A DNA stretch of 64,000 bases from Flammulina velutipes (lineage: Eukaryota > Basidiomycota > Agaricomycetes > Agaricales > Physalacriaceae): contig JAALGH010000011.1 in the NCBI GenBank assembly GCA_011800155.1, positions 1,178,001 through 1,242,000 on the forward strand, written 5' to 3'. Positions 6,143-47,339 of this stretch are shown here, piece after piece (within the stretch, counting starts at the first letter, position 1; the number at the start of each line of letters is the position of its first letter). Position numbers and translations under genes: made by a program. The notes under the pieces are model-generated. The model saw only the letters and a program-made list of their open reading frames with translations, ran no database searches and was not told the origin of the DNA.

Positions 6143-6980
6143 TTAAAACCTTCTGCTTGTACCAGGCCCTGTTGAATTATGATTCTTCGGAGGGCGCGCG
6201 CGTATCTGGGACAATGCTTTAATGATCAAAGCACAATAAGTACAAGCCTTCACAGACCTTTCCTGCCGCACTCAACTCCGTGTAAAATCGTTGTAGAAGC
6301 CGTGGGTCCCTCTGGCATTCGAAAAAGAACGCCTCGATTCGGCGATCACACTGCTCTCTTAGTGTTAGAAAGGTTTTTGGTGGTATTTCGAGACCAGGAA
6401 TCCAGGGAGTGGTCGGACGATCCCCGTCCTGCAGACAGAATGGAATGCCGATGAACCATTGCGTATAAGGTCGACCGGTCTGTGGATCTACCTTTGTGCA
6501 TCGCCAGGGAGGTGTTGTTCGTATGTTGTCGGGAGCATAGAGTACATCTTTGTCGCCTTCCTGAACTACAGGGAGCGCAAACCTGCGTAGTACGGCTGGC
6601 ATATCCTTGATGCTGAGACCATTAAAGGTGCCCATAGGATACACCCATGAATAACCACTGTGTTTATCCCAAGATGGGGCTGGGCAGACAACCCCCGGGC
6701 GGTCCCCTTTGCATGACACCCTGTAGGAAACATTCTTCGTCGTGTTCGAGATATGGTGCGTAAGGGCAGTTGTTCGGTGGGAACCGACGAGGCGAAAACC
6801 GTCGTTGTCGGCTGTGGTAGTGGATATCCGCAGTTCTTTCTGAACAGCGAGGCCCAGATCGTAGTATGGGAGAATGAGAGACGCGTTGACTGCAGCAATC
6901 TTGCCTTCGCTCAGAGGAGCAGCAGGTCGGTGGAATTGCGGAGAAGAAGCCGCACCGGTACGGTAAGGATTGGAGGCCAT
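6143..6980 (-). CDS. Family B protein B1, head to head with A2
   Basis: Uncharacterised 261-aa protein in two exons, 6258-6980 and 6143-6205. The start at 6980 is chosen because B3 and B4 begin in the same ctggcATG context and B4 has the same MxSNxYR start. An upstream in-frame ATG exists at 7118 but is not conserved. Conserved blocks are KIAAVNASLILPYYDLGLAV, WVYPMGTFNGL, PPWRCTKVDPQTGRPYTQWF, IGIPFCLQDGDRPTTPW and RRIEAFFFECQRDPRLLQRFY. The short second exon adds a basic tail, IRARPPKNHNST...TSRRF. No signal peptide or membrane segment is seen in the conserved product. It faces A2 across 371 bp. This copy and B4 belong to the inverted duplication. Function unknown. Confidence 0.8.
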
Positions 6981-7351
6981 GCCAGCTAAGTTGGAGCAAG
7001 AGGGAGTAGGCGAGCACAGATAAAAGGTAAGGCAAGGAGCCAAGATACAGTATAAAACCAATTTCTGCACGACATTTGTTGTTCGATTAGACTCAAAGCC
7101 AATACCATAGGGTGCCATAGCTCCAGGAGACCGATTCGGCGAGAAACCGACAGTGAATGTTCAATGATTTTCAATGTGGTTCAATGAGAAGGTGACTTTG
7201 ATCGACTATCATCAAATTCGGTAAGTACTGCCGGTTGTTCAATGTTATTCGGCTGATGCCTGATCGTATACTTTGTTCCTCTACACTTTCTTTGTTCTTT
7301 GTTCTCTTCAGCGCTATAAAATGATTATCGGTGTCCAGCGTCGTCCTTCTC
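6981..7351. promoter_or_regulatory. Bidirectional promoter region B1/A2
   Basis: A 371-bp spacer between divergent starts. It holds TTCAATG at 7160, 7170 and 7180, three copies spaced exactly 10 bp apart, plus a fourth at 7238. A TATAAAA at 7315-7321 sits 31 nt before the A2 start, just after a TTGTTCTTTGTTCTC run. The corresponding spacer of A10/B4 also carries three copies of the motif (as CATTGAA). A regulatory role is inferred. Confidence 0.6.
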
Positions 7352-8954
7352 ATGGCCCCTCATCTTCCCATATCCGGCGAATACTTCGTCTTCAAGCTTA
7401 ACCCGACACAGACTTTGAATCTCATTCTGGATGATCCCGAAGTCGCCAAGGCATGTGAAGCCCTCGGCGCACGGTGTAAAAGATACATTGGTTGTTGCCT
7501 AGGAGTGCGTATCAGTTTATTGTACGCGCAGCCCAAGTACTCACAATTTACGCGATAGTGGACTGGTATTCCCTATGTTGGCACGCTCTTTCCCTTCGAG
7601 ATGTCAATAGTATCTCGCGGTCTCGTGGCGTATCCTACGACTTTCGTCACCGAGGACATGTCTATTCCCATCTTTCCAACCACACATCATCCTCGCGGAC
7701 GAAAGCCTCTCGTTGTTGACCCTCCATTACCATGGGATAACTGCTATCACACCACGCCAGCTGTTTTGCTCGTTCGCGTCTTGTATCGTGAACCAGATAT
7801 CCGTCCCCGCGGAAAATACGCCCTCATGCCTCGTTATCAGACATCCATCCTCCGCTTCCAACAGACGCACGACGACCAGTGGCGAGAGAAACTCTGTGAT
7901 ATGCACGAAACTGGCGGTACGGACTTTGAGCCCCCTCCTATTGAAGATCAGGAGGGCATCGAGGAATTTTATGAGAGCCTCAAGACTGAGCTAGACCCCA
8001 GTCAGCTCCCGGTTGTCAATGAAGATTTACAATCTTACGCTCTACTGCCAGAGGCTACATCGTCGCTCACAGATGTCGCTTCTCTCGAAAGCTCTGATCG
8101 TACGTTTTCCTTTCTAGTATGACCAACTCAGCTCATGTCGTGTACGACTTTCTCTAGACTACGATGGGACGGAGTCGGACTCGGCTTCACGTGTCACTTC
8201 GCACGACTCACAGCGAGAGCGAAGGGCACACCAGTACGACTATACACCGGCAATAGATATCACCATTGACCTGGAGACGGTCCCAGCCGACGAGTTGGCC
8301 GATAACATCTTTGACTTTTTCGAAGAATTGCTTGAAATGGGAGAGTGAGGGTTTCCTCCTTTGTCAAAATGAACAATTACTCAACTAGCTTGCTAGAATA
8401 CTTCTGGCACACCAAGCAAAAGTGGCAGCAGCTGTAGCTGAGGTTCAACGCCAGGATGCAGAATTTGATGCGAAAGTTGCTGCAGCTCGTCAATCGAGTT
8501 CGTCCACTGAGGACAGCGATGCTCCCCGTGAGGGACCAGCCTTATCTCTCTCGTGCATCTCGGAAAAAAATTCCCCTCTTCACCAGAATACGGTCTCTGG
8601 CGATGACACTCACCAAACACGATCGGAGGCGTCTTCGACTACCATGGCTTCAGGCGAGGCTGATCAGTATATCTCAGTGGCGTCTAATCCTCAGCCTGAC
8701 GGTGCGCACACCATAGGTGTGAAGGCTGCCTTCACAACAGATATCAGTTTGTCGACAGCGATGTTTGCTCCTTCTACTGCGTCAGAAGGTAAGCCAACAG
8801 TAAACATGTCCAAAGTTAGTATATTTAGTATTCAAACGCAGATCTACCGCCATCACATTGGCGGTGCTGGTGGTCCTTCACGCAAACTTTGAAGAGAGTG
8901 TCTACCCGAATGATCCAGACCACGAAGAAGGGTAAAATTGCTACGGCTGACTAG
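7352..8954 (+). CDS. Family A protein A2, intact
   Basis: Uncharacterised 461-aa protein in five exons: 7352-7504, 7559-8099, 8158-8344, 8397-8788 and 8842-8954. The order is: N-terminal block (GEYFVFKLNPTQTL, LILDDPEVA, YIGCC); core (HHPRGRKPLVVDPPLPWDN, GKYALMPRYQTSIL, ETGGTDFEPPPIEDQEGIEEF); acidic linker; DLETVPADELADNIFDFFEEL; a likely coiled coil (AEVQRQDAEFDAKVAAARQ); a long Ser/Thr-rich spacer; and a basic Trp-rich end (HWRCWWSFTQTLK...TTKKGKIATAD) reached only by splicing the last intron. Reading through that intron gives a false shorter end at 8892. It shares its promoter spacer with B1. Nearest relative is A10. No known domain is recognised. Confidence 0.85.
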
Positions 8955-9094
8955 TTTGTTGTACTATTAGTACTAGTGAATTATTACTGTTTGCTCAATG
9001 TCAGCTATGTAGTATCTTTCGTTGAATTGTTAATGTAATACAATTATTTCAAGACAGAGGTTGAAGAGAGTGTGAAGGTTTCAGCGAGAGCTGA

Positions 9095-9145
9095 TTAAAA
9101 CACTCGTCCATTCTGCAACCTTCGAGAAGTTTTGTCAGACCGTAT
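9095..9145 (-). pseudogene. Relic of a family B last exon
   Basis: This matches, in inverted orientation, the second exon and stop of B3 (about 43380-43430), including the SDKTSRRLQNGRVF-like coding stretch and its stop. It is cut at 9145 in mid-exon and joined to the FMO relic. It shows that the ancestral block continued into a B gene placed tail to tail with A2, as B3 and A10 still are. Confidence 0.75.
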
Positions 9146-9234
9146 CTTCTGAGCTTAAGGAACTTATGAAAGGCGAGACAATCAGACGTTATTCCTGGGG
9201 ATGGTCCCATGCGCCTGCGACACCGGATATTTGA
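9146..9234 (+). pseudogene. 3' relic of the FAD monooxygenase gene
   Basis: About 28 codons reading SELKELMKGETIRRYSWGWSHAP and ending PDI-stop reproduce the C-terminus of FMO2 (KGETIRRYSWGWSHVPAVQDI) more closely than FMO1. No upstream FMO exon is present. The 3' flank after the stop, including tgtggcgtcaat and a cttacctatctc run, also matches the flanks of both full genes. Confidence 0.85.
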
Positions 9235-19920: not shown

Positions 19921-20226
19921 CTATGCAAGTGGGCTAATAAGTCTGCGCGACGTGAGCAACAACGTTGACAATGAAAGCGTGTCGTACGCACTTTATGAGA
20001 GACGGCTGGGGGTTGCTCCTCGTGAAGCCAAAGTATATTATGAGAGGAATCCAGCCGTAATGGAACACCGTCTGCGTCTGTCAGTTGGCAACTCGACGCC
20101 GGAAAATGGCCTAAACGCACCCGGCCAAGCTCGACGGCCTTGTTAATGGCTTCCTGCAACGTTACTTCAGAAAAGGCAGCGCATATAGTCAACGAGACCA
20201 CCGACTTTTGTGTCTTCAGAGGGCAT
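19921..20226 (-). CDS. TOM7: TOM7, mitochondrial outer-membrane translocase subunit
   Basis: A small tail-anchored subunit of the TOM complex, which imports proteins into mitochondria and helps regulate TOM assembly. Four tiny exons on the minus strand (20206-20226, 20121-20153, 19992-20077 and 19921-19942), joined at GT-AG introns of 43-52 nt, encode 53 aa. It begins MPSEDTKEAINKAVELGR, continues through the membrane segment FHYGWIPLIIYFGF and ends TRSNPQPSLIKLISPLA. The HYGWIP core and the RSNPxPSLIKLISPLA end are the fungal Tom7 signature, and the length is right for the family. It is head to head with eIF3f, 89 bp between starts. It is invisible in unspliced frames. Confidence 0.94.
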
Positions 20227-20315
20227 AATGGCGAGCAGTGGTGGTGGTGGTTGCTGTTTGGGAGTGACCGGCGTTTGCCGACAGTGGTGAAAAAGTTTGC
20301 TTGCCATCGACCACC
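20227..20315. promoter_or_regulatory. Compact bidirectional promoter, TOM7 / eIF3f
   Basis: Only 89 bp separate the two start codons, so the genes must share promoter elements. The eIF3f start has a strong context (ccaccATG). No TATA box is evident, as is common for housekeeping divergent pairs. Confidence 0.7.
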
Positions 20316-22834: not shown

Positions 22835-22901
22835 GGCCTGCGATTCGACGAGACCCTCAGAATTGGAAACTTTACCCACTTCATCCATCTACCCATCTGT
22901 C

Positions 22902-23378: not shown

Positions 23379-25054
23379 TTAATTACACCAGAGCGACATA
23401 CGTAACTTCGCCTGCGAGCCAAGCATCCCAGTCACCTTGATCATTCGGTTGTATGGACTCTTCACAAACCGCCGTAGTAACAAACGAGGCGAATTTGGGA
23501 TCTTAGCTGGCATTGAAGTTCAGCCCGACACGGGAATCAAACAATGAACAAGATACACTTACATTGAAGGTCGGCATATGTCTTACTCTTCGTCATCTTG
23601 GTGGAAGCAGAAATCGTCGGCGTTTCACTGGAAACGAGTGACTGCGGCTGAATTTCTTTTGATGTTTCGCCACTGGTGGCAGACACAACAGGGAGTACGT
23701 GAATAGCTCTGCCAAGAACACAATGGTCTAGTCATGGGATGGTAAATCTATCTTGAGGAGAACGTCCACAAGAAACCACGTACCGTCTCCTGAAGTCGAT
23801 AACAACGTTCCTGAAATGGGAAAGTGTGGCGTCACATCATCTTTTTTCATGCCAAAGTCATCCGTGGTTTCTTCAACATCGGTTGCATTCAAAGACGGTA
23901 TAACATCGTTGGACTGATGTGATTGACGAGCGAGGGCGACCTTGGCGTCAAACTCAGCATCCTGTCGTTGCACGTCGGCAAGTTGTGCTTTTTTCTTTTT
24001 CACGTAGGCTAATATGATGCTAGAAGATTGAATTAGTGGGGGGAAATGGTCTTATATGTAATGCTTACCTTCCAAGTTCCTTCAGCTCTGCATAGAAATC
24101 GTAGACATTGTCGGCAAGTTCATCGCTTGGAACCGTCTCCAAATCTAACGTTATATCTAAGGCTGTCGCATAGTCAAAGTTGGCGAGCGCAGATCGAACT
24201 TCGGGTATGGAACTATGGATAGATGATCCAGGCTCGGCTAAGGTCGAGGTTAGTATCAAGTGTGAGAAAATCTGCAGAATATTGCTTCGTACTTAGCTCT
24301 TCTTCATCCGAATATGTCTCGCTTTCTTTATCCTGCGCTCCATCGGGAGAATTGCGAGGTTCCCCACCAAACGGAGACGACACACCAGCATTTATGGGTA
24401 CCCTGTCTGGTCTACTTTGGACTTTTTCGTAGTACCTCTCCAATGCCTCCCCATCCTCGAGAGGATCTGGTTCGAGATCTGTACCACCGGTTTCCTTCAT
24501 ATACTTTAGTTTGGCTCTCCATTCCTCGTCACCACTTTGGTAGCCATCAAGAATGGCCGTCTGTCCTCGCGGTAAGAGCGCGTACTTTCCTCTAGGTCGA
24601 CTGGACCACTCTGTATACCTGATGCGAACAGTCATCTCCGACAAGGTGAGATGGTAGCAGTCATCCCATGGTAGAGGAGGGTCAACGATGAGTGGTTTGC
24701 GATTTCGAGGATGGTACGTTGTCGGCAAGATGGGCACGGACATGTCTGCAGGAATGACGCCGTTAGGCTGCGCCACAAGACCGCGCGAGACCAACGACAT
24801 CTTAATCGGAGCGAGGCTTCCTAGCACGGGGATTCCACACCACTACCGAACGCCACAATTTAGATGGCTGCTTCGAGTGTTGAGCAAATAAATGAACGTA
24901 CAGCGATGCAGCATCCAATATACTTCTTACACTTTGACTGCAGAGCTTTGCATCCTTCTGCTACGTCTGGGTCGTCGTGAATGAGCGCCAGAGTTTCCGC
25001 AGGATTGAGCTTGTAGACAAAGTACTCCCCTATGAGGGGCAGTTTCGAAGTCAT
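23379..25054 (-). CDS. Family A protein A3
   Basis: Uncharacterised protein of the A4/A5 subgroup. Exon 1 (start 25054) gives GEYFVYKLNPAETLALIHDD and KYIGCC. Exon 2 gives YHPRNRKPLIVDPPLPWDDC, GKYALLPRGQTAILDGYQ, ETGGTDLEPDPLEDGE and a Ser/Asp/Glu linker. Then come LDLETVPSDELADNVYDFY, and LADVQRQDAEFDAKVALARQ. Two further spliced exons carry a Ser/Thr spacer and the conserved basic end (RFVKSPYNRMIKVTGMLGSQ...LRMSLWCN), closing at TAA 23379-23381. The end near 23728 obtained by reading through the intron is not the real one. Intact by eye. No B gene faces it; upstream is a possible exon-1 relic. Confidence 0.8.
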
Positions 25055-29222: not shown

Positions 29223-30132
29223 TCAGGACAGCACGCTTCTCCTAGTACGGCGACTATTCCGACTTTGAATCGTGCGGGTGGATCGTTGCGCATTGGAGCG
29301 TATAGAGTACCGTTCATCTTCCGAAGGTGGGCGAACCTACGTAGGCGGTCAAATCATGGCTCTATATCTTGAAGTGAATCATATAAACCTGTTCTGCGGA
29401 ACGCAATTCCCTGTGGTATCGATACAGGCGCCATGGCTCGGCCTTGCATTCAATGAAGAAGTCTTGGACGTTGTCCAAGACGCGATGCTGCAGCTTGCGA
29501 AAAGACTCGCTTTCGACATGGTAAGGCCGCTTCCCGTAGCCCGGCGTCCACGGTTTGGTAGGTCGCTCTCCTTGATTCAGTTCAACGGGAATACCGATGA
29601 ACCACTGGGTACGGGCCCGTCCGTCGGTTTCTAGCTTCGAACATTTCCATGGTGGGATAGTGATCAATGTGTCAGCTTCGAGGTCGGAGCCGGGTTGCGA
29701 GACGGGGACCGCGAATCTCTTGAAGACGTCCGGTAGGTTATTTTCATTGAGGCCATCGAATGTGCCCATAGGGTAAACCCAGGAAGCATTGGGATCTCCC
29801 CAACGGGGAGGTTTGCAAACGACGGCAGGTCTGTCCCCTTTGGTGAGACGCTTCTCGACACTGGTGGCGATCTCAGCAAGACATTTCGTCAGACAGGATG
29901 CATTCGTGGCTCTAGTTCGATGGGATGCGGCCAAAAAAAATCCTTCTGCATCGGGGGTTTCTGTAGACTTCTTTATCTCGTTGAGAACGGCGAGACACAT
30001 GTCGTAGAATGGAGCGACGAGGGAGACTTTAACGGCGGCAATTTGGCCATTGCTCAGCTCTGTGGAGGCGCTGTTATCGGATTGGGCGAAAGTACCGGCG
30101 AGGGACTTGATGTTGTGTAGACCGCTAGACAT
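29223..30132 (-). CDS. Family B protein B2, head to head with A4
   Basis: Divergent B member of 285 aa from exons 29389-30132 and 29223-29336. It keeps IAAVKVSLVAPFYDMCLAV, SWVYPMGTFDGLNENNLPDV, IPPWKCSKLETDGRARTQWF, IGIPVELNQGERPTKPWTPG and DFFIECKAEPWRLYRYH. The spliced last exon gives a longer Arg/Ser-rich tail (RPPSEDERYSIRSNAQRSTR ... RRTRRSVLS). It lacks the extra Gly-Tyr segment seen before WVYP in other copies. The partner A4 starts 430 bp away on the other strand. Function unknown; intact. Confidence 0.78.
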
Positions 30133-30562
30133 AGACGATGAAGGGAAGGGGGCGCGTAGAAATATGGGTGGGTTTGCATCTCAGTGATTGTTTCAGTACA
30201 GACTTTAAAGACCAGAGGAGGGAGACCAGCGAAGACCATCTTGCGTTGCCATGGTGTGCTTGTAACCAAAAGAGAGATCAAGAGCATACACATCGGTCTG
30301 AAGGACAATTGACTTGGCAGTGGCGAATCAAGAAGAGAACAAGAGAGATCATGAGGAGCACACCAGACGTTCTTAGGGAACAAGAAACATATGGTGGTCG
30401 GAACAGAGTCCGTTGATCCGAATGCTCACGCTACTGTGTTCGTTGTTCTTTTATTGTCATGTCATTTTTGGTCCCCACCATCACCTTGTTGGTCTTAAAA
30501 GACGGTTCAGGTCTCAAAAGACCCCTTCGCCACCAACCCAAGTCACGATTATCGTCCGCAAC
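30133..30562. promoter_or_regulatory. Bidirectional promoter region B2/A4
   Basis: A 430-bp spacer between divergent starts. The A4 side holds gttcgttgttcttttattgt, a variant of the TTGTTCT element found upstream of other A genes. From 30391 on, the sequence is repeated upstream of A5 (32692-32859). The B2-proximal part is unique, so A5 inherited only the A half of the spacer. Confidence 0.55.
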
Positions 30563-32228
30563 ATGTCATCACCAATGCCTATGCTTGGGGAATACTTCGT
30601 CTTCACGCTCAATCCTGCTGAGACTCTAGCCCTCATCCATGATGACCCAGAGGTCGCGGAAGCTTGCAAGATTCTCCAAGCCAAATGCAAGAGGTACATT
30701 GGCTGCTGTGTCGCTGTACGTTGTTTCTTCACCTGGCATCAAACAACCACGATGTAACTAAATTGTGGCGTTTCTGCAGTGGTGCACGATTCCAGCGCTG
30801 GGTAGTCTCTCACCTCTCAAAATGTCTTTGGTCTCGCGAGGTCTAGTGGCGCAGCCTGACGGCTTGATTCCTGTAGACATGTCTTTGCCCATCTCGCCGA
30901 CAACATACCATCCTCGACATCGCAAACCACTCATCGTCGATCCTCCTCTACCTTGGGATGACTGCTACCATCTGACTTTGTCGGAGATGACCGCTCGCGT
31001 CAGATATACACAATGGGACAGCCGACCCAGAGGAAAATACGCGCTTTTACCGCGAGGCCAGACAGCCATCCTTGACGGTTACCAAGAAGACGACGAGCAA
31101 TGGAAAGCCAAACTCAAGTATATGCAGGAAACGGGTGGTACGGACTTTGAGCCTGACCCTCTTCAAAATCCAGATGCAATGGAGAGGTATTATGATGAAG
31201 TGAGAAACAGACCAGACAGGGTACCCATAAACGCTGGTGTTCTGTCTCCCTACGGCGGTGATCCTCGAAATGGCGCTTGGGACTCAGAAAGTGAGACTTG
31301 TTCCGATGAAGAAGAGCTAGGTATGCACAAGCCCTATTGATTATAGTCCATGATTAACGCGAGCTTGTAGGTGTTCCATCTATCCATTCCGTGGCCGCCG
31401 ACTCAGTAAGTGAGATTCATTTGGGATCTCACTTCGACTATGCCGCAGCATTGGATATAACATTGGACTTGGAGACGGTTCCAGGTGATGAACTGGCTGC
31501 CAATGTATACGACTTCCATGCAGAGCTTAAAGAGCTGGGACAGTAAGCCTTTCATTTTCAACCGTCGATGACTCTCTAACTTTGATCTTCCCTCTAGAAT
31601 CATGATAACATACGCGGACAGAAAGTTGGCTTTACTCGCTGAGGTAGAACGCCAGGATGCTGAATTTGATGCCAAAGTCTCTCTCGCTCGTCAGCCGCGT
31701 GTAGACGACGAGAATACACAATCTATTCTGCTCAATGCCGACGATACGGCAGACGACCTCGCTCCTGCCGAAATGGATCGAGAGGCTGAAAGGCCAACAT
31801 TTGGCGAATCAGGAATCACATCGCCAGTGGATGGTAAGTGTTTCCATGATTCGTCAATGTCACTGAAACTCACCGAAAGTACCAGCCCGTCTAGATGGCA
31901 ATTCAGACCTTCCCGGTAGCCACCTTACATCTAGTGACGAGCTCCCAACAGCAGCTCACCCGGAAGCGACGACCCCCGTTCCCAGTACGGTAAAGGGTGA
32001 CCTATCCATGACAGCACTTGCCCCAATACCTCAAGGTCAGGTTTCTTCTGTACGCGACGGAATCGTAGCTTATTAACTTCGAAACTAGACATGAGCCCAC
32101 CTGGACCACGTCCGGGGCGTCTGCAGCGAACCGTGCGCTGCTTGAGCAACAAATGCGGTCGATTGGTCGAGGCGTGGAAAAAGGCTGGTTCGCGGATCAA
32201 GACTCGCTTTTCAATATTATGCAAATGA
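30563..32228 (+). CDS. Family A protein A4, intact
   Basis: Uncharacterised 460-aa protein from six exons: 30563-30715, 30780-31320, 31371-31542, 31598-31833, 31895-32035 and 32089-32228. The blocks are GEYFVFTLNPAETLALIHDD and YIGCC; YHPRHRKPLIVDPPLPWDDC; GKYALLPRGQTAILDGYQED; ETGGTDFEPDPL; an acidic linker (SESETCSDEEEL); LDLETVPGDELAANVYDF; EVERQDAEFDAKVSLARQ; a Ser/Thr/Pro spacer; and the basic end RLVEAWKKAGSRIKTRFSIL with a penultimate Cys (CK). Exon lengths sum to a whole number of codons. It shares a divergent spacer with B2 and is the tandem sister of A5. Function unknown. Confidence 0.85.
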
Positions 32229-32859: not shown

Positions 32860-34521
32860 ATGTCACGAATGCCTATTCTTGGGGAATACTTTGTCTTCAC
32901 GCTCAATCCTGCTGAGACTCTAGCTCGCATTCACGATGACCCAGAGGTCGCGGAAGCTTGCAAGGCTCTTCAAGCCAAATGCAAGAGGTACATTGGCTGC
33001 TGTGTCGCTGTACGTTGTTGTCTTCTCCCATCGAAAAACCGTAATGTAACTAAATTGTGGCGTTCCTGCAGTGGTGCACGATTCCCGTGCTGGGTAGTCT
33101 CGCTCCTATCAAGCTGTCCTTGGTTTCGCGGGGACTTGTGGCGCAGCCCAACGGCATAATCCCTGCAGACATGTCCGTGCCCATCTTGCCAACAACACAC
33201 CATCCTCGAAATCGCAAACCACTCATCGTCGACCCTCATCTACCGTGGGACGACTGCTACCATCTCACCTTGTCGGAGATGAGCGCTCGCGTCAGATACT
33301 CGCAATGGGACAGCCGACCGAGAGGAAAGTACGCGCTCTTGCCGCGAGGACAGACGGGCATTCTTGACGGTTACCAAGAAGACGACGAGCAATGGAAAGC
33401 CAAAATCAAGTATATGCAGGAAACGGGTGGTACGGACTTTGAGCCTGACCCTCTTCAAGATCCAGATGCGATGGAAAGGTATTATGATGAAATAAGAAAT
33501 GAGCCGGATTGGGTACCCATAAATGCTGGTGTATCGTCTCCGTTCGATGGGGATCCTCGAAATGGCGCTTGGGACTCAGAAAGTGAGACTTATTCCGACG
33601 AAGAAGAGCTAGGTACGCACAAGCCCCGTGCATTGTGGTTCGTGGTTAACACAAGCTTGACCTAGCCGATCCATCTATCCACTCCGTGGCCGCCGACTCA
33701 GCAAGTGAGCTCAATTTGGGACATCTTGCGAACTTCGACTATGCCGCAGCCTTGGATATAACATTGGACTTGGAGACGGTCCCAAGCGATGAACTGGCTG
33801 CCAATGTCTACGACTTCTATACAGAGCTCAAGGAACTGGGACAGTAAGCTTTTTTTCCAACTACTGGTGACTCTAAGTTGATCTTGCGATACTTAGGATC
33901 ATGATATCATATGCAACTAGAACACAGGCTTTACGCGATGAGGTGCGACGGCAGGATGCCGAGTTTGACGCCAAAGTGTCCCGCGCTCGTCAGTCACATT
34001 TAGACGACAAGAACACGCAATCTATTCTGCACAACGATAACGATACGTCAGACGATCTTGCTCCTGCGAATACGGACCGAAAGGTTGAGAGGGCAACATT
34101 TGACGAATCAGGAATCGCATCGCCAGTGGATGGTAAGTGTCTCTGCAACTCCGAGTCGTAACGTCCATTGACTTACCAGACCATCTAGATGCCAATTTAG
34201 CTCTTCCCGTCTGCCACCCAGTCAAAGCTAATTATGAGCTCCCAACAGCAACTCCTTCGACGGCGACGAACTCCGTCTCAAGTATGATGAAGGGCAACCC
34301 ATCTGCACCTACCTCTCCAACGCCTGAAGGTCAGCTTGCTCTGTAGGCGGCGAAAGCATAGCTCACTGACTGGAAAATTAGACATGAACCCATCTGAGCT
34401 ACGTTCGGGACGTCTACGGCGTACCATGCGATTTTTGAAGAGTCAATATGGCCACTTAGTTCAGGCGTCGAGGAAGGCTGGTTCGCAGTTAATGATTCGC
34501 TTCTCAATGTTATGCAAATAA
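32860..34521 (+). CDS. Family A protein A5, intact
   Basis: Tandem sister of A4, with the same six-exon plan. It begins MSRMPILGEYFVFTLNPAET, with KRYIGCC before intron 1. Core blocks are HHPRNRKPLIVDPHLPWDD (His replaces the Pro of PPLPW), GKYALLPRGQTGILDGYQED and ETGGTDFEPDPLQDPD. Later blocks are LDLETVPSDELAANVYDFY, EVRRQDAEFDAKVSRARQ and the spliced basic end FLKSQYGHLVQASRKAGSQ...RFSMLCK. All exons are open with consistent splice phases. It has no B partner: its upstream flank is the copied half of the B2/A4 spacer, fused to the orphan A6-type exon. Function unknown. Confidence 0.83.
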
Positions 34522-34839: not shown

Positions 34840-36474
34840 TTAAAGTGCCTTCGATAATAAGCTGTAGAAATTTGAACTAGACATTCTTCTGGTCTTAGTC
34901 GGTTCTCGGGGGGAACCCTTGGCATATTTCGCAATAGAACGCCAGCGGATCCGACGAGATTTCGATATATCTGTGTTTAGATGGAATCAGTAACTTTGTA
35001 CATACTCAAGTATAGTCAACAACTGACCATTCATCACGTATGTAATCGCATCCGTCGCATCTATAGTCAACGTATCGCCAGTTGGGAGCTTGAAGAACGG
35101 CGAGAACGGTTGATTGTTTCCGTTTGGTGCGCTGACGGTAGTTGACGAAGCCTGCGATTTGGACATGGGCGGAATCTCGACTCGGAGAGAACCCATCATC
35201 GGAGAAAGATGCAAACCAAGATGCGTCGTGCATTGAAAGATATCTTCGGCACCATTTGGACTGCGCACCACATCGGTCTCATCGGTGTTGTATGTACTAG
35301 AGTCACTTATTGAAAATGACTGACGAGCAGCAGCGACTCTAGCGTCTAATTCTGCATCCTTGCGTTGGACTTCAGCGACGGCAGCTGCTACCTTTGCTCG
35401 ATACGTCATAAGGATCCTACCGATAAATATTAGTTTTGAAAGCTCCCAGGCGACTGAAGTAAATGCCTCACTCTCCCATCTCGACCAACTACTCGTAGAA
35501 ATCGAATATGTTGTCTGCCAGCTCGTCAACTGGAACGGTCTCCAGATCCACTGTGAGATCGACTATCGGAGAATGGTCAAGCTGACGTGGCCTTTCCTCT
35601 CGCAACGAGTCGTACGAAGTAAATCGCGAGGTTGAGTCTGTCTCAACCAAAGGACTTCCTTCTAGGGATTATGTGAATTGAGTACATTTTGGATACTAAG
35701 GAATACATACGATTCGAACCGTTGGCAGAAATGAGATCTGTAGGATCATCTGTAGCCTCCAGGCAAGGATCAGCGAGTTCTTTGCTGTCGTTCGGTACGA
35801 CTTCGTTGAGGTCCGGGAGTTGACTGGGGTCTAGCTCAGTTTTGAGGTTCTCATACTTAGAATTCCTCGATGCGTTCCAAATCTTCGATTGAAGGGGGGT
35901 CGAAATCAATACTGCCAGTTTCAGCCATATCGCGGAGTTTCCCTCGCCACTGGTCGTCGTCTGTGCGCTGGAACCCCAGGATGCAGGTTTGATGTCGAGA
36001 CAACAGGGTGTATTTTCCGCGTAGGCGAACATCTCGTTCACGATACAAGACGCGAACGATCATTGTGGCTGGCGTGGAGTGATAGCAGTTGTCCCATGGA
36101 AGTGGAGGGTCTACAACAAGAGGCTTTCGTCCGCGAGGATGATGTGTCGTTGGAAAGATGGGAATAGACATGTCCTCGATAACGAAACCTTTGGGATACG
36201 TCGCAAGGCCACGAGACACCATCGACATCTCAAAAGGAAAGAGAGCGCCAACTGCGGGGACACCAGTCCACTGTAGCAGAAAATGTGAGCATTATGCGTG
36301 TACAAGGAAGTTGATACGTACACCAATGCAACAACCAATGTACCTTTTACACCGTGCCCCGAGAGCCTCGCACGCTGCCGCTACCTCTGGATCATCTAGT
36401 ATGAGATTCAAAGTTTGTGATGGGTTAAGCTTGAATACGAAGTATTCGCCGAGTACGGGGAGATGAGGCTCCAT
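34840..36474 (-). pseudogene. Family A copy A6, broken
   Basis: Same exon plan as A2 and A10, and convergent with A5. Start 36474 (MEPHLPVLGEYFVFKLNPSQ). Two lesions are visible. A 4-base insertion after IEEF (near 35857) gives an immediate TAA. A TAG at 35489-35491 replaces a Glu codon in FYEELLEMGE. The remaining parts are otherwise well kept: VEVQRKDAELDARVAAARQ-like coiled coil, spacer, and spliced end SKSRRIRWRSIAKYAKGSP. The protein would stop after about 170 residues. Decay is recent, since most frames remain open. Confidence 0.8.
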
Positions 36475-36754: not shown

Positions 36755-38431
36755 CTAACGCCACAAGATATCAGTGTATCGGGACCCAACCTTCATCGCA
36801 GCCTTGATCATTCGGATAGGCGCGCTCTTCGTAGAGTGTATCAATGACCCCCAACAGCACCGACGTGGTTTCAGTAGATCTATGTCTGATTATGGCCGCG
36901 TGAGTATACTACGTTTGGAGAGAATTGCGGTCCACTTACCTTCAGGCGTAGTCGAAGGAGCAAGCGTTGTTGTCGATAATGTGGCATTCGTTGTGGCCGC
37001 AGTATTCACGCCTATTGTCCACACATCGCCAGGTTGATGATCATACGGTGCTGAGATGCACTCTCGGGCGTCACATACGGTAATGGTAGTTGACGACACC
37101 TCTGAGTGTGTCTGGTGTATATCCTCGCCAGAGACCATCTTCTGGTGAATCGGAGTGCATGGAGGAGAAATCTTTTCTGAGATGCACGGAACCAACGATA
37201 CAGAACATTTGTGGGGATCGTTGCTATCCTCGGCGACTGGACTTGATCAGCAGCGACTTTGGCATCAAATTCAGCATCCTGACGTTGAACGTCAGCTAGA
37301 GCAGCCGCAACTTTTGCTCGGTGTACCAGAATGATTCTATCAGGCCACATCAATAAACGATCAACAAACCAATGAGAAAAGGGCTTACTCTCCCATTTCC
37401 AGCAGTTCCTCGTAAAAGTCATAGATGTTGTCGGCCAATTCGTCAGCTGGCACCGTTTCCAGATCCAGCGTGACATCTATTGCTGGTGAGTAGTCGAATT
37501 GGCGGGCCATTTCCTCTCGCAGCGAGTCGTACCAAAGTCGTACGAAGAGCTATATGACACTGATTCCGTTTCATCGCAGTTCGAAGAGTTTCCTTCTGAT
37601 TCATTGAATAAGTGAGTAGTTGGTACTGCAGAAAGGGATACGTACCGTCTGAACATTCGAGAGAATTGTGATCGGTGAGCTCATTCGTAGCCTCGGGCTG
37701 AGCGAGTTGCGCATGTTCGTCATTCTTCGGTATCTCTTCGTTGGGTACTGGGCGCTGGCTGACATCTAGCTCCGTTTTGAGGCTCTCGTAGAATTCCTCA
37801 ATACCTTCCTGATCTTCAATAGGATCGGGCTCAAAGTCCGTACCGCCAGATTCCTCCATATCGAGTAGTTTTTCTCGCCATTTGTTATCATCAATCTGCT
37901 GGAAGTCGAGGATGGCTGTTTGCTGACGAGGCATATAGCTGTTTGCTGACGAGGCATGAGGGCATATTTTCCCCGCGCGCGAATATCACGTTCGCGGTAG
38001 AGAGCGCGAACTGTCACCACAGCTAATGTGCAGTGATAGCAATCGTCCCATGGAAGCGGGGGATCGGTAATGAGAGACTTTCGTCCTCGAGGATGATGAG
38101 TTGTTGGAAGAATGGGGAGAGACATCTCTTAGGTGATGTATTCTCTAGGATACGACGCGAGACCACGGGACACCCATGGACATTTTGAAGGGAAAAAGAG
38201 TGCCCACTGCAGGAATGCCAGTCTGCTGTAGTGGATATGAGCATGCCGTACGTGCAAGAAATGTAATACAATACACACAGTAATGCAACAACCAATGTAT
38301 CTTTTGCATCGTGCCTCAAGAGCCTTGCATGTATTCGCTACCTCTGGATCATCCAGAATGAGATTCAGAGTTTGCGATGGATCAAGCTTGAACACAAAGT
38401 ATTCGCCCCGTGCCGGGAGGTGAGGCGCCAT
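36755..38431 (-). pseudogene. Family A copy A7, broken
   Basis: Start 38431 (MAPHLPARGEYFVFKLDPSQ). Lesions in order: an extra G in the MSMVSRG codons (near 38176); a TAA at the ITEEMS position where other copies have a sense codon (near 38132); and a 23-bp direct duplication covering the MPRQQTAI codons (about 37914-37957), which shifts the frame. The rest still reads as family A: LDMEESGGTDFEPDPIEDQE, a VQRQDAEFDAKVAA-type coiled coil, and the spliced end SLIHSTKSAPIRMIKAAMKVG. Not functional as a full-length protein. Confidence 0.8.
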
Positions 38432-38682: not shown

Positions 38683-40254
38683 CTACGAAAAGCACAGCAT
38701 ACTAGTGCATCGACTGTAACAAATTGATCCAGCCTTCCTCGTAGCCTTGATCGTTTTCCTACATGTCCTCTTCATAGATTGTGTGACGCGCCAACAGCTC
38801 CGAGGATATTTCAGGGGATACGCGTCCGTTTCTAGACTCAGTGAGCATATTTTCTATTTCGTTGTATTCAGCTTACCTTTCGGTGACGAAGCAGTAAGCG
38901 TTTGTGATGACAGGTTGTCATTTGGAATGGATTCAACATCTACTGCATTTCCAACAGGTCCATATTCAGGCTGAGAATCGAAGGGTATCGGGATGGCATC
39001 CGGCTGTTTTGCCTCGAGAGATTCCATCGCGGCACGATGCGGGACTCGGAGAATACTTTCTTCAGCTTTGACAAAGTTCTGCAAGCGTTCCTGTGCGTCC
39101 GCACTATCAGTCTCGTTCGTTTCATAGGGAGCTTCGCTGTCGTCAACTATTGAACAAGACCGCTGAGCAGCGACGACTTTCGCGTCAAATTCCGCATCCT
39201 GGCGTTGAACCTCAGCTAGAGCTGTTTCCACCTTCGTTTGATGTGCCATGATGATTCTATAAAGTCTTATTGATAAATGTTCAGAATCATAGACGATGGA
39301 TACTCACTCTCCCATTTCCTGCAACTCGTTGTAAAAGTCGTACACATTATTGGCCAGCTCGTCTCCAGGTCCAGCGTGAGATCAATAGCCGGCGAATAGT
39401 CGAACTGATGTGCCATTTTCTCTTCAAACGAGTCGCACGAAGAGGTCCGGGACACCGAATCTGTCTCTTCGTGGTCGGAACAGGAACCTATTGAATGACT
39501 TGAGTTAAACAGATTCGGCAGTAGAATAAGATACTTACTATTTGACTCTCTGAAGGACTCCACGTCGTTTAAAGGCCCATCATCCACGTCCTCTACATTG
39601 GTTCCCTTCGTTTTGAGAGACATGTCTGGCTCGGTTTTGAGGGTCTCGTAGAACGCGTCAATAGCTTCCTGGTCCTCCATATGATCTGGCTCAAAGTCTA
39701 TGCCGCCGGTTTCGTCCATATCAAAGAGCTTTTCACGCCATTCACCGTCATCAGTTTGCTGACTTCTGAGGATGGCTGTCTGCTGGCGAGGGAGTAAGGC
39801 GTACTTGCCTCGCGGACGAACATCCCGCTCACGGTATGGGACACGGACTATCATCTCAGCTATGGTGCAGTGATAGCAGTCATCCCAGGGGAGAGGAGGG
39901 TCGACGTCAGAGGTTTTCGTCCTCGAGGATGATACATTGTGGGAAGGATGGGAAGAGTCATCGCTTCAGTTATGAAGCCTTTAGGATGTGCCGCGAGACC
40001 ATTGACATCTTGAATGGAAAGAGAGTGCCAACTGCGGGAACGCCAGTCCACTGTGGCGGAAATTGTTAGTTATACCGTATGCATAAGGAAGTGGTACGCA
40101 CACCAATACAACAACCAATGTATTTTTTGCATCGCGTCCCCAGCGCCTCGCATGCCTCTGCTACTTCTGGATCATCCAGAATGAGATTCAAAGTTTGCAC
40201 TGGATTTAACGTGAACACGAAATATTCGCCTAGTACAGGAAGATGAGGCGCCAT
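38683..40254 (-). pseudogene. Family A copy A8, broken
   Basis: Start 40254 (MAPHLPVLGEYFVFTLNPVQ). About 8 bases are missing in the MSMVSRG region (near 40000), followed by a stop in the new frame. One base is missing in the KPLIVDPP codons (near 39906). About 13 bases are missing at LETVPxDE (near 39362). Surviving blocks are GKYALLPRQQTAIL, ETGGIDFEPDHMEDQE, EVQRQDAEFDAKVVAAQR and the spliced end SMKRTCRKTIKATRKAGS. It lies in a run of three broken copies A6-A8. Confidence 0.8.
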
Positions 40255-40531
40255 GGGAAGGAATGTGTGTGTTGCTGATCCTACGACCCATCTTATACGA
40301 CCAGAGAAACAAGAGGACAATTAGAGAACAATAGCCGGCCGCAACATCACTTGTCATCAGAGTACGAGGACAACGTCGATTACGGTCACGTTATGTGACA
40401 AGTACATCCCGCCGGTATCCCGCCTCTTTTTCGGGAATAGACTGGAGCCACGATAACATGAGCATAACATTGAGAAAAAACAATACATAATTTGAATAGC
40501 TAAGTGGTATACTGATTCACTACTAGTAATA

Positions 40532-42194
40532 CTAACAACATAACATATCGGAACATCGATTATAACAAACTGACCCAACCTTCCTCGTAGCCTTGATTAT
40601 TTGGATGGGCGCGTTCTTCATAGATCGCGTGAGTGATCGCCAAAAGTGCCGACTTGGTTTCATTTCATCTATTTGAATTTCTGAATATAGCTCATGAGTA
40701 TGCTGAATTTGGATAATATTACTGTTGGCTTACCTGCGGGTGTAGAAGGAACAAGTGTCGTTGTTGACAATCTGGTATTCGTTGCGGCTGCAGCGCTCAC
40801 AGCTGTTGTAGGTGCGTCGTCGGGCTGATGATCGGACGGCGTTGAAATGCACCGGTCAGCGTCGCCTGCGGCCATGGTATTTGAAGACTCCTGTGATCGC
40901 GTTTGGTGTGCATCCTCCTCAGAGATCGTCATCTTCTGTTCAATTGGCGGAGTACAAGGAGGAGAAAGCTTTTCTGTGAGGCACGAGACAGATGATATTG
41001 AACCCTCGGAGGGAGTATCACTGCCCTCAGTGGACAATTTTGATTGACGAGCAGCAGCAACTTTCGCGTCAAATTCGGCATCCTGACGTTGAACGTTAGC
41101 TAAAGCTGCTGCCACCTTCGCTCGATGTGCAAGAAGGATTCTATCAGACCACACATGAGCAATGATCCAATTCAACGAAGTAAAAGAGCCTCACTCTCCC
41201 ATCTCCAGCAGTTCCTCATAAAAGTCAAACATGTTGTCGGCCAATTCGTCGACTGGCACCATCTCCAGATCAAGAGTGAGATCGATTACTGGGGTATAAT
41301 CAAACTGGCGCGCCATTTCCTCCCGGAACACATCGTAGGAAGAGCTTTGGGAGACCGAATCAGCATCTTCGGAATCCAGAGAGGTTTGCACTATATATGG
41401 ACAGTGTAAGTAAAGAAGACTTATCAGAATGATGATACATACCATCTGCTTCTCCAATGGAGTCGAGATCCATTAGTGGGTCGTCATCCAAGCTCAAGTC
41501 CACATCTTCGAGCTCCGGGCCACCTATCGGTTCCTTCGATTTTATGCACATATCTGGCTCTGATTTGAGGACCTCGTAGAAGGCTTCGATACCTTCCTGG
41601 TCTTGGATAGGCTCAGGCTCAAAATCTGTACCACCAGTTCTGTCCATGTCGATGAGTTTCTCTCGCCATTTGCCATCATCGGCCTCCTGGAGCTCGAGGA
41701 TGCATCTCTGTTGGCGTGGCATCAGGGCGTACTTTCCGCGGGGTCGAACATCTCGTTCACGATACAGTACACGGACCATCATCATAGCCAAAGTGCAATG
41801 GTAGCAGTTATCCCAAGGAAGGGGAGGGTCGACAATAAGAGGTTTGCGTCCTCGAGGATGATGGACTGTTGGAAGGATGGGGATAGACATGTCCTCGGTG
41901 ACAAAGCCTTTAGGATACGCCACGAGACCGCGAGATACCATCGACATCTCGAAGGGAAAGAGAGTGCCGACTGTTGGGATACCAGTCCACTGTGGCGGAA
42001 TTTGTGAGTGTAGGGTGCGCACAAAGGAAGCCGATACGTACACCAATGCAGCAGCCAACATATTTTTTACATCGTGCTCCCAAAGCTTCGCATTCTCTTG
42101 CTACCTCTGGATCATCCAGAATGAGATTCAACGTTTGCGACGGGTTGAGCTTGAACACAAAATATTCGCCAAGTACGGGGAGATGAGGCGCCAT
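40532..42194 (-). CDS. Family A protein A9, intact, head to head with B3
   Basis: Five exons from start 42194. Blocks: GEYFVFKLNPSQTLNLILDD, YVGCC; HHPRGRKPLIVDPPLPWDN; GKYALMPRQQRCILELQE; RTGGTDFEPEPIQDQEGIE; acidic linker; LDLEMVPVDELADNMFDFYEE; ANVQRQDAEFDAKVAAARQ; a long Ser/Thr/Pro spacer; and the spliced end HFWRSLTRSMKN followed by PIQIIKATRKVGS and SDMLCC. The protein ends in two cysteines, as in some prenylated Rab proteins, but other copies do not keep this, so lipidation is only a possibility. B3 starts 362 bp away on the other strand. Function unknown. Confidence 0.84.
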
Positions 42195-42556
42195 GGGAAG
42201 AAATGCGTGTGTTGCTGATTCTGGCCTCCATCCTATATAGTTTAGCAAGGACAAGAGAACCAAAAGAAAACAATTGGAGAACAAGGACGATCAGATCATG
42301 TGATTCGCTCATCTCTTGTTTTCGTCGTCGAGCCGAGATTCTTGTTCCTACTTTTGGTTCAGCTTTTGTTTCTTTCTATCAATCACTATGATGGAGCTAT
42401 TCTTCTTCCCTCTGCCTTGTTTTCTGGTTGCGATCAGGTCTGGCCCTTGCGACATGACAGACCTTTTTATACCGTCCACTCAGTGGATAGGATGTCTCAT
42501 ATTTCTCCCCATCCCTCCTTAGCTCATCTACCTATACACTCTTCTGTCCATCTGGC
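42195..42556. promoter_or_regulatory. Bidirectional promoter region A9/B3
   Basis: A 362-bp divergent spacer. The A9 side shows TTGTTCTC-type elements (minus strand ccttgttctccaattgttttc), as in other A genes. The B3 side has a ctttttataccg run about 80 nt before the B3 start. No CATTGAA repeats are present here, unlike the B1/A2 and A10/B4 spacers. Confidence 0.5.
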
Positions 42557-43430
42557 ATGGCTCTCAACCCTTTCGGTACTTTGGCTCCCAAGGACCGTCA
42601 CGTACCCGCTGTTCCGCTGAAGAACGGCAAAATCGCAGCTGTTAAAGCGTCCCTTATCCTCCCATACTACGACATGGGCCTCGCCATCGAGAAGGAAATC
42701 CAGAACTCTCAGACTGTGGCAGATGCTGATGGATTTCGTCTTGTTGGGTCCTTTCGACCAACGGCTCTGACCCGCCACACCCGCCGCATTTCTAACATAA
42801 CGAAGCATGTTTCTGACCGAGTGTGCAAAGGGGTACGTCCTGGTGCCCCATGCTCTCCCCCACGTTGGGCAAAGCAACTTTCTGGTCTCTCATGGGTGTA
42901 TCCCATGGGCACGTTTGACGGTCTTAATCTGAACAACTTGCCTGCCGTACTCCGCAAGTTCGCGATCCCCGTTGTCCAGGAAGGTGACGATGATGTCCTC
43001 ACTGTTTCCGAGAACATAGAAACTGTACCTCCGTGGAAATGCTCAAAACTGGACCCCGAGACTGGCCGGCCTCGCACTCAGTGGTTCATCACCATCCCGT
43101 TTGCCTTACAAAACGGGGAACGCCCGACCATTCCATGGAGTACAGGCCTCGGGAATGATTGCTACCAGATTCCGGAATCGACTTTTCGAACTCTGAACGC
43201 TCGCTGTTTGCTCCGAATCGAAAAATTCTTCACCGAATGTCAGGATGACCCTCGGCTTCTGCGTCAATTCTACTCAGACTTAAGTGCGGCAGAAAAGGTC
43301 AGTAATGGCTTGTAAATCATGCTTCGTTTCCTAATCATCGCTGTAGATACGTGCGGGCCCGCCAAAGGATCACTGCTCAATACGGTCTGACAAAACTTCT
43401 CGAAGGTTGCAGAATGGACGAGTGTTTTAA
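42557..43430 (+). CDS. Family B protein B3, head to head with A9
   Basis: 274 aa from exons 42557-43297 and 43347-43430. The start lies in the ctggcATG context shared by B1 and B4. Blocks: KIAAVKASLILPYYDMGLAI, SWVYPMGTFDGLNLNNLPAV, VPPWKCSKLDPETGRPRTQW, FALQNGERPTIPW, and RIEKFFTECQDDPRLLRQFY. The spliced tail is IRAGPPKDHCSIRSDKTSRR. It is tail to tail with A10, 138 bp apart. The last exon is the sequence found as a relic at 9095-9145. No recognised domain; intact. Confidence 0.8.
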
Positions 43431-43568
43431 TCAGCTCTCGCTGGAAACTACACTCTCTTCAACCTCTGTCTTGAAATAATTGTATTATATTAATAATTCA
43501 ACGAAAGATACTACATAGCCGACATTGAGCAAACAGTAATAATGCACTAGTACTAATAGTACAACAAA

Positions 43569-45158
43569 CTAGTCAGCCGTAGCAATTTTACCCTTCTTCG
43601 TGGTCTGGATCATTCGGGTAGACACCTTCTTCAAAGTTTGCGTGAAGGACCACCAACACCGCCAATGTGATTGCGGTAGATCTGTGTCTGAATACTAAGT
43701 ATACTGGGTTTGGACATGATCACAGTTGGCTTACCTGCAGACGCAATAGAAGGAGAAAATGTCGATGTCAACAAACTGGTGGAGGCAGCCTTCAAACCCA
43801 TGGCAGGCGCACCGTCATGCTGAGGACCAGACAGTGCTGGGATGCACTGATCAGCGTCGTCCGTAATAATGGTAGTCGACGATGTCTCTGAGGGTGTTGG
43901 CTGCGTGCCCTCGCTAGAGACCATGTCATGATTCAGAGTGCAAGGAGGAGAAATGTTTTTCGTGATGCACAAGACAGATGACGCTGGGCCCTCGCGGGGA
44001 GCATCACTGTCCCCAGTGGACGAACTCGAGTGACGAGCAGCAGCAACTTTTGCATCAAATTCTGCATCCTGGCGTTGAACCTCAGCTACAGCTGCTGCCA
44101 CTCTTGCTTGATGTGCTAGGAGTATTCTAGAAAGCCGGGTTAGCAATTGTTCCCTTCGGCAAGGGGGGATAGCCTCACTCTCCCATTTCAAGCAGTTCTT
44201 CATAAAAGCCAAACAAGTTATCGGCCAACTCGTCGACTGGGACCGTCTCCAGATCAACAGTGAGATCTAGTACCGGTGAATAGTCGTACTGGTGTGCCCT
44301 TCGCTCTCGCTGTGAGTCGTACGAAGTCACGCGTGAAGCCGAGTCCGTCCCATCCGAGTCATAGTCTGAAGAGATTTGTATGCGACATGAGTTAATTGGT
44401 CGTACTGGAAAGGAATACGCACGATCCGAACCTTCGAGAGAAGTGATATCTGCGAGCGAATCTGTAGCCTCTGGGCGTAGAGCATATGGTCGTTCATGTT
44501 CCGGTAACTGGCTGGGGTCTAGCTCGGCTTTGAGACTCTCGTAGAATTCTTCGATGCCCTCCTGGTCTTCAATAGGAGGAGGCTCAAAGTCCGAACCACC
44601 AGTTTCATCCATATAGAGGAGTTTCTGTCGCCACTGGTCGTCGTCCGTCTTCTGAAATTCGAGGATGGATGTCTGATAATGAGGCATGAGGGCGTATTTT
44701 CCGCGGGGTCGAAAGTCTGGTTCACGATACAAGACGCGGACGATCATCGTGGCTGTCGTGGCGTGATAGCAGTTGTCCCAAGGAAGTGGAGGGTCAACGA
44801 CGAGAGGTTTCCGTCTGCGAGGGTGATGCGTCGTTGGAAGGATGGGAATAGACATATCCTGGGTGACATAATTTTTGGGATACGCCACGAGGCCACGAGA
44901 CACCATCGACATCTCGAAAGGAAAGAGTGTTCCTTCTACGGGAATGCCAGTCCACTGTGGCGTACATGAGTATGATGATGTGTGTACAAGAAAGCTGATA
45001 CGTACATTAATGCAACAGCCGATGTATTTTTTGCATCGTGCTCCAAGAGCCTCACATTCCTTGGCTACTTCTGGATCATCCAGAATGAGGTTTAAAGTCT
45101 GTGTCGGGTTCAGCTTGAAGACGAAATATTCGCCGAATACGGGGAGATGAGGCGCCAT
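43569..45158 (-). CDS. Family A protein A10, intact, head to head with B4
   Basis: Closest relative of A2. Start 45158. Blocks: GEYFVFKLNPTQTLNLILDD, KYIGCC; TTHHPRRRKPLVVDPPLPWD; GKYALMPHYQTSILEFQ; ETGGSDFEPPPIEDQEGIEE; LDLTVDLETVPVDELADNLF; AEVQRQDAEFDAKVAAARH; Ser/Thr spacer; and the spliced end SHWRCWWSFTQTLKKVSTRM...KGKIATAD closing at 43569. A TATAAAA (minus strand, 45198-45192) lies 34 nt before the start. Intron 1 happens to keep the frame open, so an unspliced reading would include a false insert after GCC. Function unknown. Confidence 0.84.
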
Positions 45159-45510
45159 GAGAAGGGAACGATGTATGCTGATAACGAGTCATTTTATAAC
45201 GTTCAAAATGAACAAAGGAAACAGTTAGAGAACAAAGAGGGTCTGAATAACATTGAACAACAGTAACTTTGATGTCGATCACCGTTCGCATTGAACGTTG
45301 ACCTGGTCTCCTGGGAGCTTATGATTGTCCGCACAATCATCGAGCGCTCTGAATGGTTCGAGTCTCATTGAACAACAACAGTACTGGCTTGTTTGACCTC
45401 TGTCACGCGGAAATCGGTTTTGTACTCAGAGTCACTGGTCGAATGGATTTTGGCTCCTCCCTTTGCCTTTCATCTGAGTTAACCTGCCACTCTTGCTCCA
45501 ATCATCTGGC
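45159..45510. promoter_or_regulatory. Bidirectional promoter region A10/B4
   Basis: A 352-bp divergent spacer with CATTGAA at 45251, 45289 and 45366, the same heptamer repeated in the B1/A2 spacer. The minus strand carries tttgttctctaact and TATAAAATGA upstream of A10. A shared regulator for both genes is inferred. Confidence 0.6.
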
Positions 45511-46344
45511 ATGTCTTCCAATCTTTACCGTGATACTCCTGTTTCTTCCCAGCAGTTCCATCGACCCGCTGCTCCTCTGAGCCAAGGCAAGATTGCTGCA
45601 GTCAACGCGTCTCTCATTCTCCCTTACTATGACATGGGCCTCGCTGTCGAGAAAGAACTGCGGATATCCACTACGACAGCCGACAACGACGGCTTTCGCC
45701 TCGTCGGGTCCCACCGACCAAATGCCCTTACGAATCGTATCTCGAATACGACGAAGAATGTTTCCTACAGGGTGTCATGCAAAGGGGACCGCCCGGGGGT
45801 TGTCTGTCCTGCCCCATCTTGGGATAAACACAGTGGCTATTCATGGGTGTATCCTATGGGCACCTTTAATGGTCTCGACCTAAAGGACCTGCCAGCCGTA
45901 CTGCGCAAGTTTGCGCTCCCCGTAGTCCAGGAAGGCGATAACGACGTACTCTATGCTCACGACAACATACGAACATCACCTCCCTGGCAATGCACAAAGG
46001 TAGACCCACAGACCGGTCGACCTTATACGCAATGGTTCATCGGCATTCCGTTCTGTCTACGGGACGGGGATCGTCCGACCACTCCGTGGATTCCTGGCCT
46101 TGAAATACCACCGAAAACCTTTCTAGCACTGCGAGAGCAGTGTGACCGCCGAATCAAGGCATTCTTCATTGAATGCCGCCAGGACCCACGTATTTTACAA
46201 CGATTCTACATGGAGTTGAGTGCGGCAGGAAAGGTCTGTGAAGGCTTGCATTGTGCTTTGATTATTAAAACCTCGTTTCAGATACGCGCAAGCCCACCGA
46301 AGAACCATAGTTCAACACGGCCTGGTACGAGTAGAAGGCTTTAA
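45511..46344 (+). CDS. Family B protein B4, head to head with A10
   Basis: 261 aa from exons 45511-46233 and 46282-46344, the same lengths as B1. The start MSSNLYRDTP in ctggcATG is preferred over an ATG six codons upstream. Blocks: KIAAVNASLILPYYDMGLAV, VSCKGDRPGVVCPAPSWDKH, SWVYPMGTFNGLDLKDLPAV, PPWQCTKVDPQTGRPYTQWF, RDGDRPTTPWIPG and RRIKAFFIECRQDPRILQRF. The spliced tail is IRASPPKNHSSTRPGTSRRL. Cys and Trp positions are conserved across copies. It faces A10. Function unknown. Confidence 0.82.
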   Translation: MSSNLYRDTPVSSQQFHRPAAPLSQGKIAAVNASLILPYYDMGLAVEKELRISTTTADNDGFRLVGSHRPNALTNRISNTTKNVSYRVSCKGDRPGVVCPAPSWDKHSGYSWVYPMGTFNGLDLKDLPAVLRKFALPVVQEGDNDVLYAHDNIRTSPPWQCTKVDPQTGRPYTQWFIGIPFCLRDGDRPTTPWIPGLEIPPKTFLALREQCDRRIKAFFIECRQDPRILQRFYMELSAAGKVCEGLHCALIIKTSFQIRASPPKNHSSTRPGTSRRL

Positions 46345-47336: not shown

Positions 47337-47339
47337 GTT

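Follow-up and report, generated by a model that had tools for sequence, protein, structure and literature searches.

What keeps a gene back to back with a neighbour through repeated duplication? The question is raised by a 64,000-nucleotide stretch of the Flammulina velutipes genome (C12:1178001-1242000, called the window here, in a genome of 38.1 Mb and 23 contigs) in which members of two gene families, A and B, are read in opposite directions from closely spaced start codons. The original prediction, made from the sequence of this window, was that every B gene is divergently paired with an A gene and that the two form a dedicated system with a shared promoter, possibly of a toxin/antidote kind. 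Following both families through the genome, we found that each B gene does have a back-to-back neighbour, that this neighbour is an A gene on C12 and an HMG-box gene or its remnant on a second contig, C6, and that the regions between the paired genes are rich in the word TTGTTC. We lean towards the interpretation that the A/B pairs are divergent, co-regulated modules under HMG-box control that were duplicated and kept as units.

Family B genes and their back-to-back neighbours

The four head-to-head pairs predicted in the window were confirmed, their start codons being 352-430 bp apart, and another was found beyond it (gene boundaries were read from the sequence and short GT-AG introns by eye). 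B1 (6143..6980, minus strand; exon 1 at 6980-6258, a 52-bp intron and exon 2 to 6143, predicted) faces A2 (7352..8889, plus; multi-exon, introns by eye) across 371 bp; its start was set at 6980, the point from which the family aligns, and a longer open reading frame (ORF) from 7118 enters the intergenic region. B2 (29223..30132, minus), the most diverged B gene on C12, faces A4 (30563..31919, plus) across 430 bp; its 3' exon was drawn by eye and has an uncertain end, and the unspliced ORF ends at 29362. A9 (40669..42194, minus) lies 362 bp from B3 (42557..43430, plus; predicted exon 1 to 43297, 49-bp intron and exon 2 to 43430), and A10 (43631..45158, minus; four exons, by eye) lies 352 bp from B4 (45511..46344, plus; with a predicted 48-bp intron close to its 3' end). 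The fifth pair, B5(-)/A11(+), has a 388-bp spacing and occupies C12:1250.7-1253.4 kb, about 9-11 kb past the window end.

All five B genes on C12 are therefore paired with an A gene. The prediction that A genes also occur unpaired held as well: six of the eleven on C12 have no B partner, namely A1 (2159..3035, plus; 3' end not fixed), the most diverged A copy of this contig, A3 (23731..25054, minus), A5 (32860..34158, plus), a tandem copy of A4, and A6 (34987..36474), A7 (37012..38431) and A8 (38854..40254), all on the minus strand. Judged by eye, the frame looks intact in 5/5 paired A genes, stops inside A2 and A11 in the search output being taken as intron sequence, and broken in 3/6 unpaired C12 copies (frame breaks in exon 2 of A6 and A7; exon 2 split among different frames in A8).

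Genome searches for family B (two queries from C12, one from C6) and for family A (one query) give counts that are lower bounds: at least nine B genes (five on C12 plus four distantly related ones on C6) and at least 16 A genes (11 on C12 and five on C1 (two), C4, C5 and C9). Five of 16 A genes face a B gene and 11/16 are without one; no B match was found within the 9-10 kb fetched around each A copy on C1, C4, C5 and C9, and the genome-wide search with the one A query gave no match on C6. All nine B genes have an adjacent opposite-strand partner with start codons less than 1 kb apart, one of these partners being a remnant.

The distant B genes, at C6:2.90-3.00 Mb, share 21-26% identity with B4 (E 4e-12 to 3e-9), and their start codons lie 502, 529, 505 and 525 bp from those of their partners (loci L033-L036). 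The partners are HMG-box genes at L033, L034 and L035 and a truncated HMG remnant at L036, whose ORF (2881-3519) by eye represents only the first part of an HMG-box protein and matched no HMG query or model. Eight copies in the C6 HMG-box cluster have a box; three face a B gene and five do not. Against PF00505 (cut-off 25.4), two unpaired C6 paralogues score 40.9 and 28.1 bits and the paired L033 gene 24.1 bits; the paired L034 and L035 genes are without Pfam HMG detection, yet match L033 at E 1e-22 and 2e-77, respectively. Splicing can add to the B gene at L034 a second exon that ends in a lysine/arginine-rich tail; such tails can serve as nuclear signals. As to the surroundings, the eight HMG-box genes (C6:2.90-3.03 Mb; L033-L036 and L042-L049) lie about 30-160 kb from the contig end, interspersed with F-box/LRR-like genes (by eye), and the L036 remnant continues into an LRR-like stretch.

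In both clusters no B gene was found without a back-to-back neighbour, and the neighbour's family often occurs without B. Shuffling gene order and orientation, with the number of other genes assumed (10-30) rather than counted, gives P = 1.5e-5 to 2.2e-4 for 5/5 pairing on C12, P = 8e-4 to 7e-3 when near-identical duplicates are collapsed to three C12 lineages and, on C6, P = 3e-5 to 9e-4 (4/4) or 3e-4 to 5e-3 (3/3). The claim that every B gene is paired with an A gene thus stands on C12 and fails genome-wide, where four of nine B genes face HMG-box genes or a remnant. B genes away from A, which the original prediction took as evidence that would overturn it, occur within this same genome, with the head-to-head layout kept. 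Because B is paired with another family on C6, the reading of A and B as a dedicated two-gene system is weakened, and that part of the prediction is not upheld.

Neither family could be assigned by similarity. None of the A and B proteins scanned reached a Pfam cut-off, the isolated weak matches including CLAMP for one B protein of C6 (E 0.04) and, for one A piece, an astrovirus capsid model (E 0.61). The Pfam scan of A proteins found no HMG box, A having been compared with HMG-box proteins through Pfam models and not protein against protein, and among the proteins scanned neither family gave a homeodomain match (E up to 1, in further scans up to 10). In sequence searches of the PDB, B matched 13 frataxin chains, at E 0.68 to 1 and over about 40 residues, which is of no use for assignment, and A had no match; a profile comparison of A against B found no relation between them. 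Literature searching, a method unable to find sequences, found no paper on either family.

Age and duplication of the pairs

B1/A2, A10/B4 and B5/A11 go back to a single unit that was copied segmentally (their DNA is 83-87% identical across 1-2.8 kb, with 76% in one flank), so the five C12 pairs amount to about three independent observations. Protein identity to B4 is 64% for B3 and 44% for B2. Synonymous divergence (dS) is 1.3-1.5 for B3 and 1.5-2.4 for B2 among the B genes; among the A genes, it is 1.0-1.25 between A9 and the trio A2/A10/A11 and 2.8-3.2 or saturated for A4, many A comparisons being dS-saturated and the codon comparisons covering neither the frame-broken A7 and A8 nor the A genes of other contigs. 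By nonsynonymous divergence (dN), the B genes fall in the order B1/B4/B5, then B3, then B2, which is the order of their partners A2/A10/A11, then A9, then A4. Since this broad order is the same in both families, the pairs appear to have travelled together, in agreement with the prediction that B2/A4 is strongly diverged and that the arrangement has been kept over time. Within the recent trio, dS of A (0.34-0.66) exceeds that of B (0.18-0.29). In a nucleotide tree, the row of the C4 A copy was badly aligned and was ignored.

Whole-gene pairwise dN/dS, an average that may hide local positive selection, is 0.19-0.45 for B and 0.10-0.22 for A on C12 where computable, and 0.43-0.56 for B genes and 0.33-0.65 for HMG genes on C6. 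These values are consistent with purifying selection on average, and those of C12 show no sign of the rapid diversification that a toxin and its antidote would be expected to undergo.

One pair also lies in an inverted segmental duplication of about 5-6 kb (window 4138-9145 and 43380-49440), together with an adjoining FAD-type oxidoreductase gene that matches Trp_halogenase and FAD_binding_3 just above their cut-offs.

TTGTTC sites between the paired genes

The motif was picked by counting words in the 11 A promoters of C12, five of which are A/B intergenic regions; TTGTTC is present in all 11, with 33 sites where 1100 random windows from that region would lead one to expect 2.1, and TTGTTCTC is present in 10/11. 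The regions between paired genes in the window hold five sites for B1/A2 (6981..7351, 371 bp), three for B2/A4 (30133..30562, 430 bp), two for A9/B3 (42195..42556, 362 bp) and four for A10/B4 (45159..45510, 352 bp). Per kb, TTGTTC occurs 9.98 times in A/B regions (5/5 regions), 6.31 times in HMG/B regions on C6 (4/4) and 0.52 times upstream of control ORFs (4/32). In the A genes of other contigs the density is 6.00 per kb (5/5), and in the unpaired HMG genes of the C6 cluster it is 5.33 per kb (5/5); these two sets and the HMG/B regions played no part in picking the word. HMG-type genes elsewhere, likewise independent of the picking, carry the word in 7/11 cases; of 12 loci fetched from outside the cluster this set omits L057, whose start is not clear, and 3/11 are on C6. 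Scrambled words are rarer than TTGTTC in every family set, though not always down to control level; TCTTGT, for example, has a density of 2.63 per kb in A/B regions and of 3.89 in the unpaired A promoters of C12. The longer word CWTTGTTC occurs at 4.20 per kb in A/B regions and 4.85 in HMG/B regions and in none of 32 controls; it is present in 3/5 A/B regions, 4/4 HMG/B regions, 4/5 unpaired C6 HMG genes and 2/5 other-contig A genes.

Fungal HMG-box sites share the core A(A/T)CAA(A/T)G, and (A/G)ACAAAGAA, which is bound in Podospora, resembles the Ste11 site of S. pombe (PMC3730723). TTGTTC matches the core of these published sites, and TTCTTTGTTC, found in the B1/A2 and B5/A11 regions, agrees with (A/G)ACAAAGAA. 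An HMG-box protein may accordingly be what binds the TTGTTC sites. The shared promoter of the original prediction gains from this a common HMG-type motif in all five A/B intergenic regions, while the unpaired genes of both clusters carry this motif almost as densely.

An inverted TTGTTCG pair matched 16 times and its control 5 times; none of the 16 matches is in the A/B cluster, and two are close to HMG-box genes of C3 and C4. The upstream regions of HMG-box genes L060 (C3:93 kb) and L056 (C4:37 kb) contain 7 and 5 TTGTTC in 450 bp, mostly as ATTGTTCG; these genes may regulate themselves.

Candidate explanations and known divergent systems

In the module that we favour, a B gene and a partner read in the opposite direction share an intergenic region (350-430 bp on C12, 500-530 bp on C6) rich in TTGTTC. 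An HMG-box factor, perhaps one of the C6 paralogues that themselves face distant B genes, would bind these sites and turn on B and its partner together. B may then act with regulators of the HMG-box circuit, as the tail of one C6 B protein is rich in lysine and arginine, a composition frequent in nuclear proteins. Since the partner is an A gene on C12 and an HMG-box gene on C6, the conserved element is probably B plus the shared control region, not an A-B complex. A genes also multiply without B, and 3/6 such C12 copies are apparently frame-broken, as birth-and-death duplication predicts.

Several observations weigh against these modules. The unpaired C12 A promoters (7.78 TTGTTC per kb) and the unpaired C6 HMG promoters are nearly as rich in sites, and the pairing is therefore not accounted for by the motif. 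CWTTGTTC, which of the two words comes nearer to the published core, is missing from 2/5 A/B regions and occurs in 0/6 unpaired C12 A promoters, and the double-site pattern TTGTTCTC..TTGTTC is not enriched genome-wide (57 matches against 66 for the reversed control; 4/57 fall in the A cluster). The control promoters behind the 0.52 per kb are the 300 bp upstream of ORF starts, some of them perhaps internal exons, and the C12 A promoters behind the 33 sites are paralogues, hence not independent. Within the closest trio the orders of divergence differ, A2-A11 being nearest for A, and B1-B4 by dN or B4-B5 by dS for B. Finally, the partner at L036 is a truncated remnant, so a B gene is able to persist without an intact partner.

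The layout could instead reflect a dedicated system whose two products act together, as a complex or as effector and partner. Complete pairing among the five close B genes, the age and co-divergence of the A/B pairs and the contrast, by eye, between intact-looking paired and partly frame-broken unpaired C12 A copies all speak for it; yet 4/9 B genes face HMG-box genes with no A nearby and 11/16 A genes lack a B, and we consider it unlikely. Structure prediction from rows of the window (four for B and nine for A, the A rows including residues translated from predicted in-frame introns) gave unusable models (mean predicted local distance difference test (pLDDT) 40.8 and 34.2), too poor to assess a complex. 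We give similarly limited credence to a passive by-product, in which one ancestral pair was copied segmentally or in tandem and tight head-to-head spacing hinders separation. That one unit, copied segmentally, supplied three of the five C12 pairs, that the intergenic regions are compact and that each cluster holds about three independent lineages would all be expected in this case, but B2/A4 and B3/A9 remain paired despite their age (B dS 1.3-2.4), A spreads without B while no B was found neighbourless, and the layout recurs on C6 with a different partner. Selfish toxin/antidote pairs of the spore-killer kind would also be clustered, multi-copy and subject to apparent birth and death. However, with whole-gene dN/dS of 0.10-0.45 on C12 where computable, A genes scattered singly over four other contigs and C6 partners that look like DNA-binding regulators, this suggestion of the original prediction finds no support and we regard it as highly improbable.

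HD1/HD2 mating-type genes are laid out as divergent two-gene units, with several paralogous pairs and unpaired extra copies. The A and B genes likewise form divergent units with multiple paralogous pairs and lone extra copies, but unlike the basidiomycete HD1/HD2 pairs they have no homeodomain match in the proteins scanned. The homeodomain and STE3 matches of the genome are spread over C1, C2, C3, C5, C8 and C13, with none on C12 or C6; they include a divergent homeodomain pair on C2, the strongest single homeodomain match on C5 and several STE3-type receptor matches. The receptors and the divergent homeodomain pair, together with the short introns, are what a basidiomycete of the mushroom group would show. 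The upstream regions of mating-type genes (one homeodomain, five STE3) contain 6 TTGTTC in 5.95 kb (1.01 per kb, 4/6 regions), against 0.52 per kb in controls. Given these locations and counts, a role in pheromone response is not supported.

Like divergent bidirectional gene pairs in general, the B genes and their partners have head-to-head starts less than 1 kb apart (9/9) with candidate regulatory sites between them; unlike such pairs, B is kept here while the partner family varies by cluster (A or HMG-box). As in Ste11/MATA_HMG-type regulons such as the Podospora anserina network (PMC3730723), the promoters of HMG-box genes themselves carry HMG-type sites. The candidate targets differ, however, being families A and B here, with mating-type regions little above control.

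The arrangement and the shared cis motif tie two families without Pfam assignment to HMG-box regulators, which control sexual development in other fungi. A single motif, together with nine divergent modules and eight clustered HMG-box genes, offers a handle on the functions of uncharacterised mushroom genes, and B is an example of a gene that retains a back-to-back layout though its partner differs. More speculatively, and in our view improbably, B might be dedicated to HMG-box regulators as their cofactor or antagonist, set back to back with the factor that it tunes or with a second type of regulator (A), which would make a multi-copy divergent switch outside the mating-type loci, HD1/HD2-like but unrelated.

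Elsewhere in the window, a gene-sized direct duplication (54966-57384 and 60629-63122, about 5.65 kb apart) has pieces with no A or B match in the window self-comparison. An inverted repeat of about 0.8 kb (50271-51152 and 52882-53704) has arms 79-80% identical, and positions 20146-21270 contain a gene with a JAB/MPN domain that is eIF3f-like by eye.

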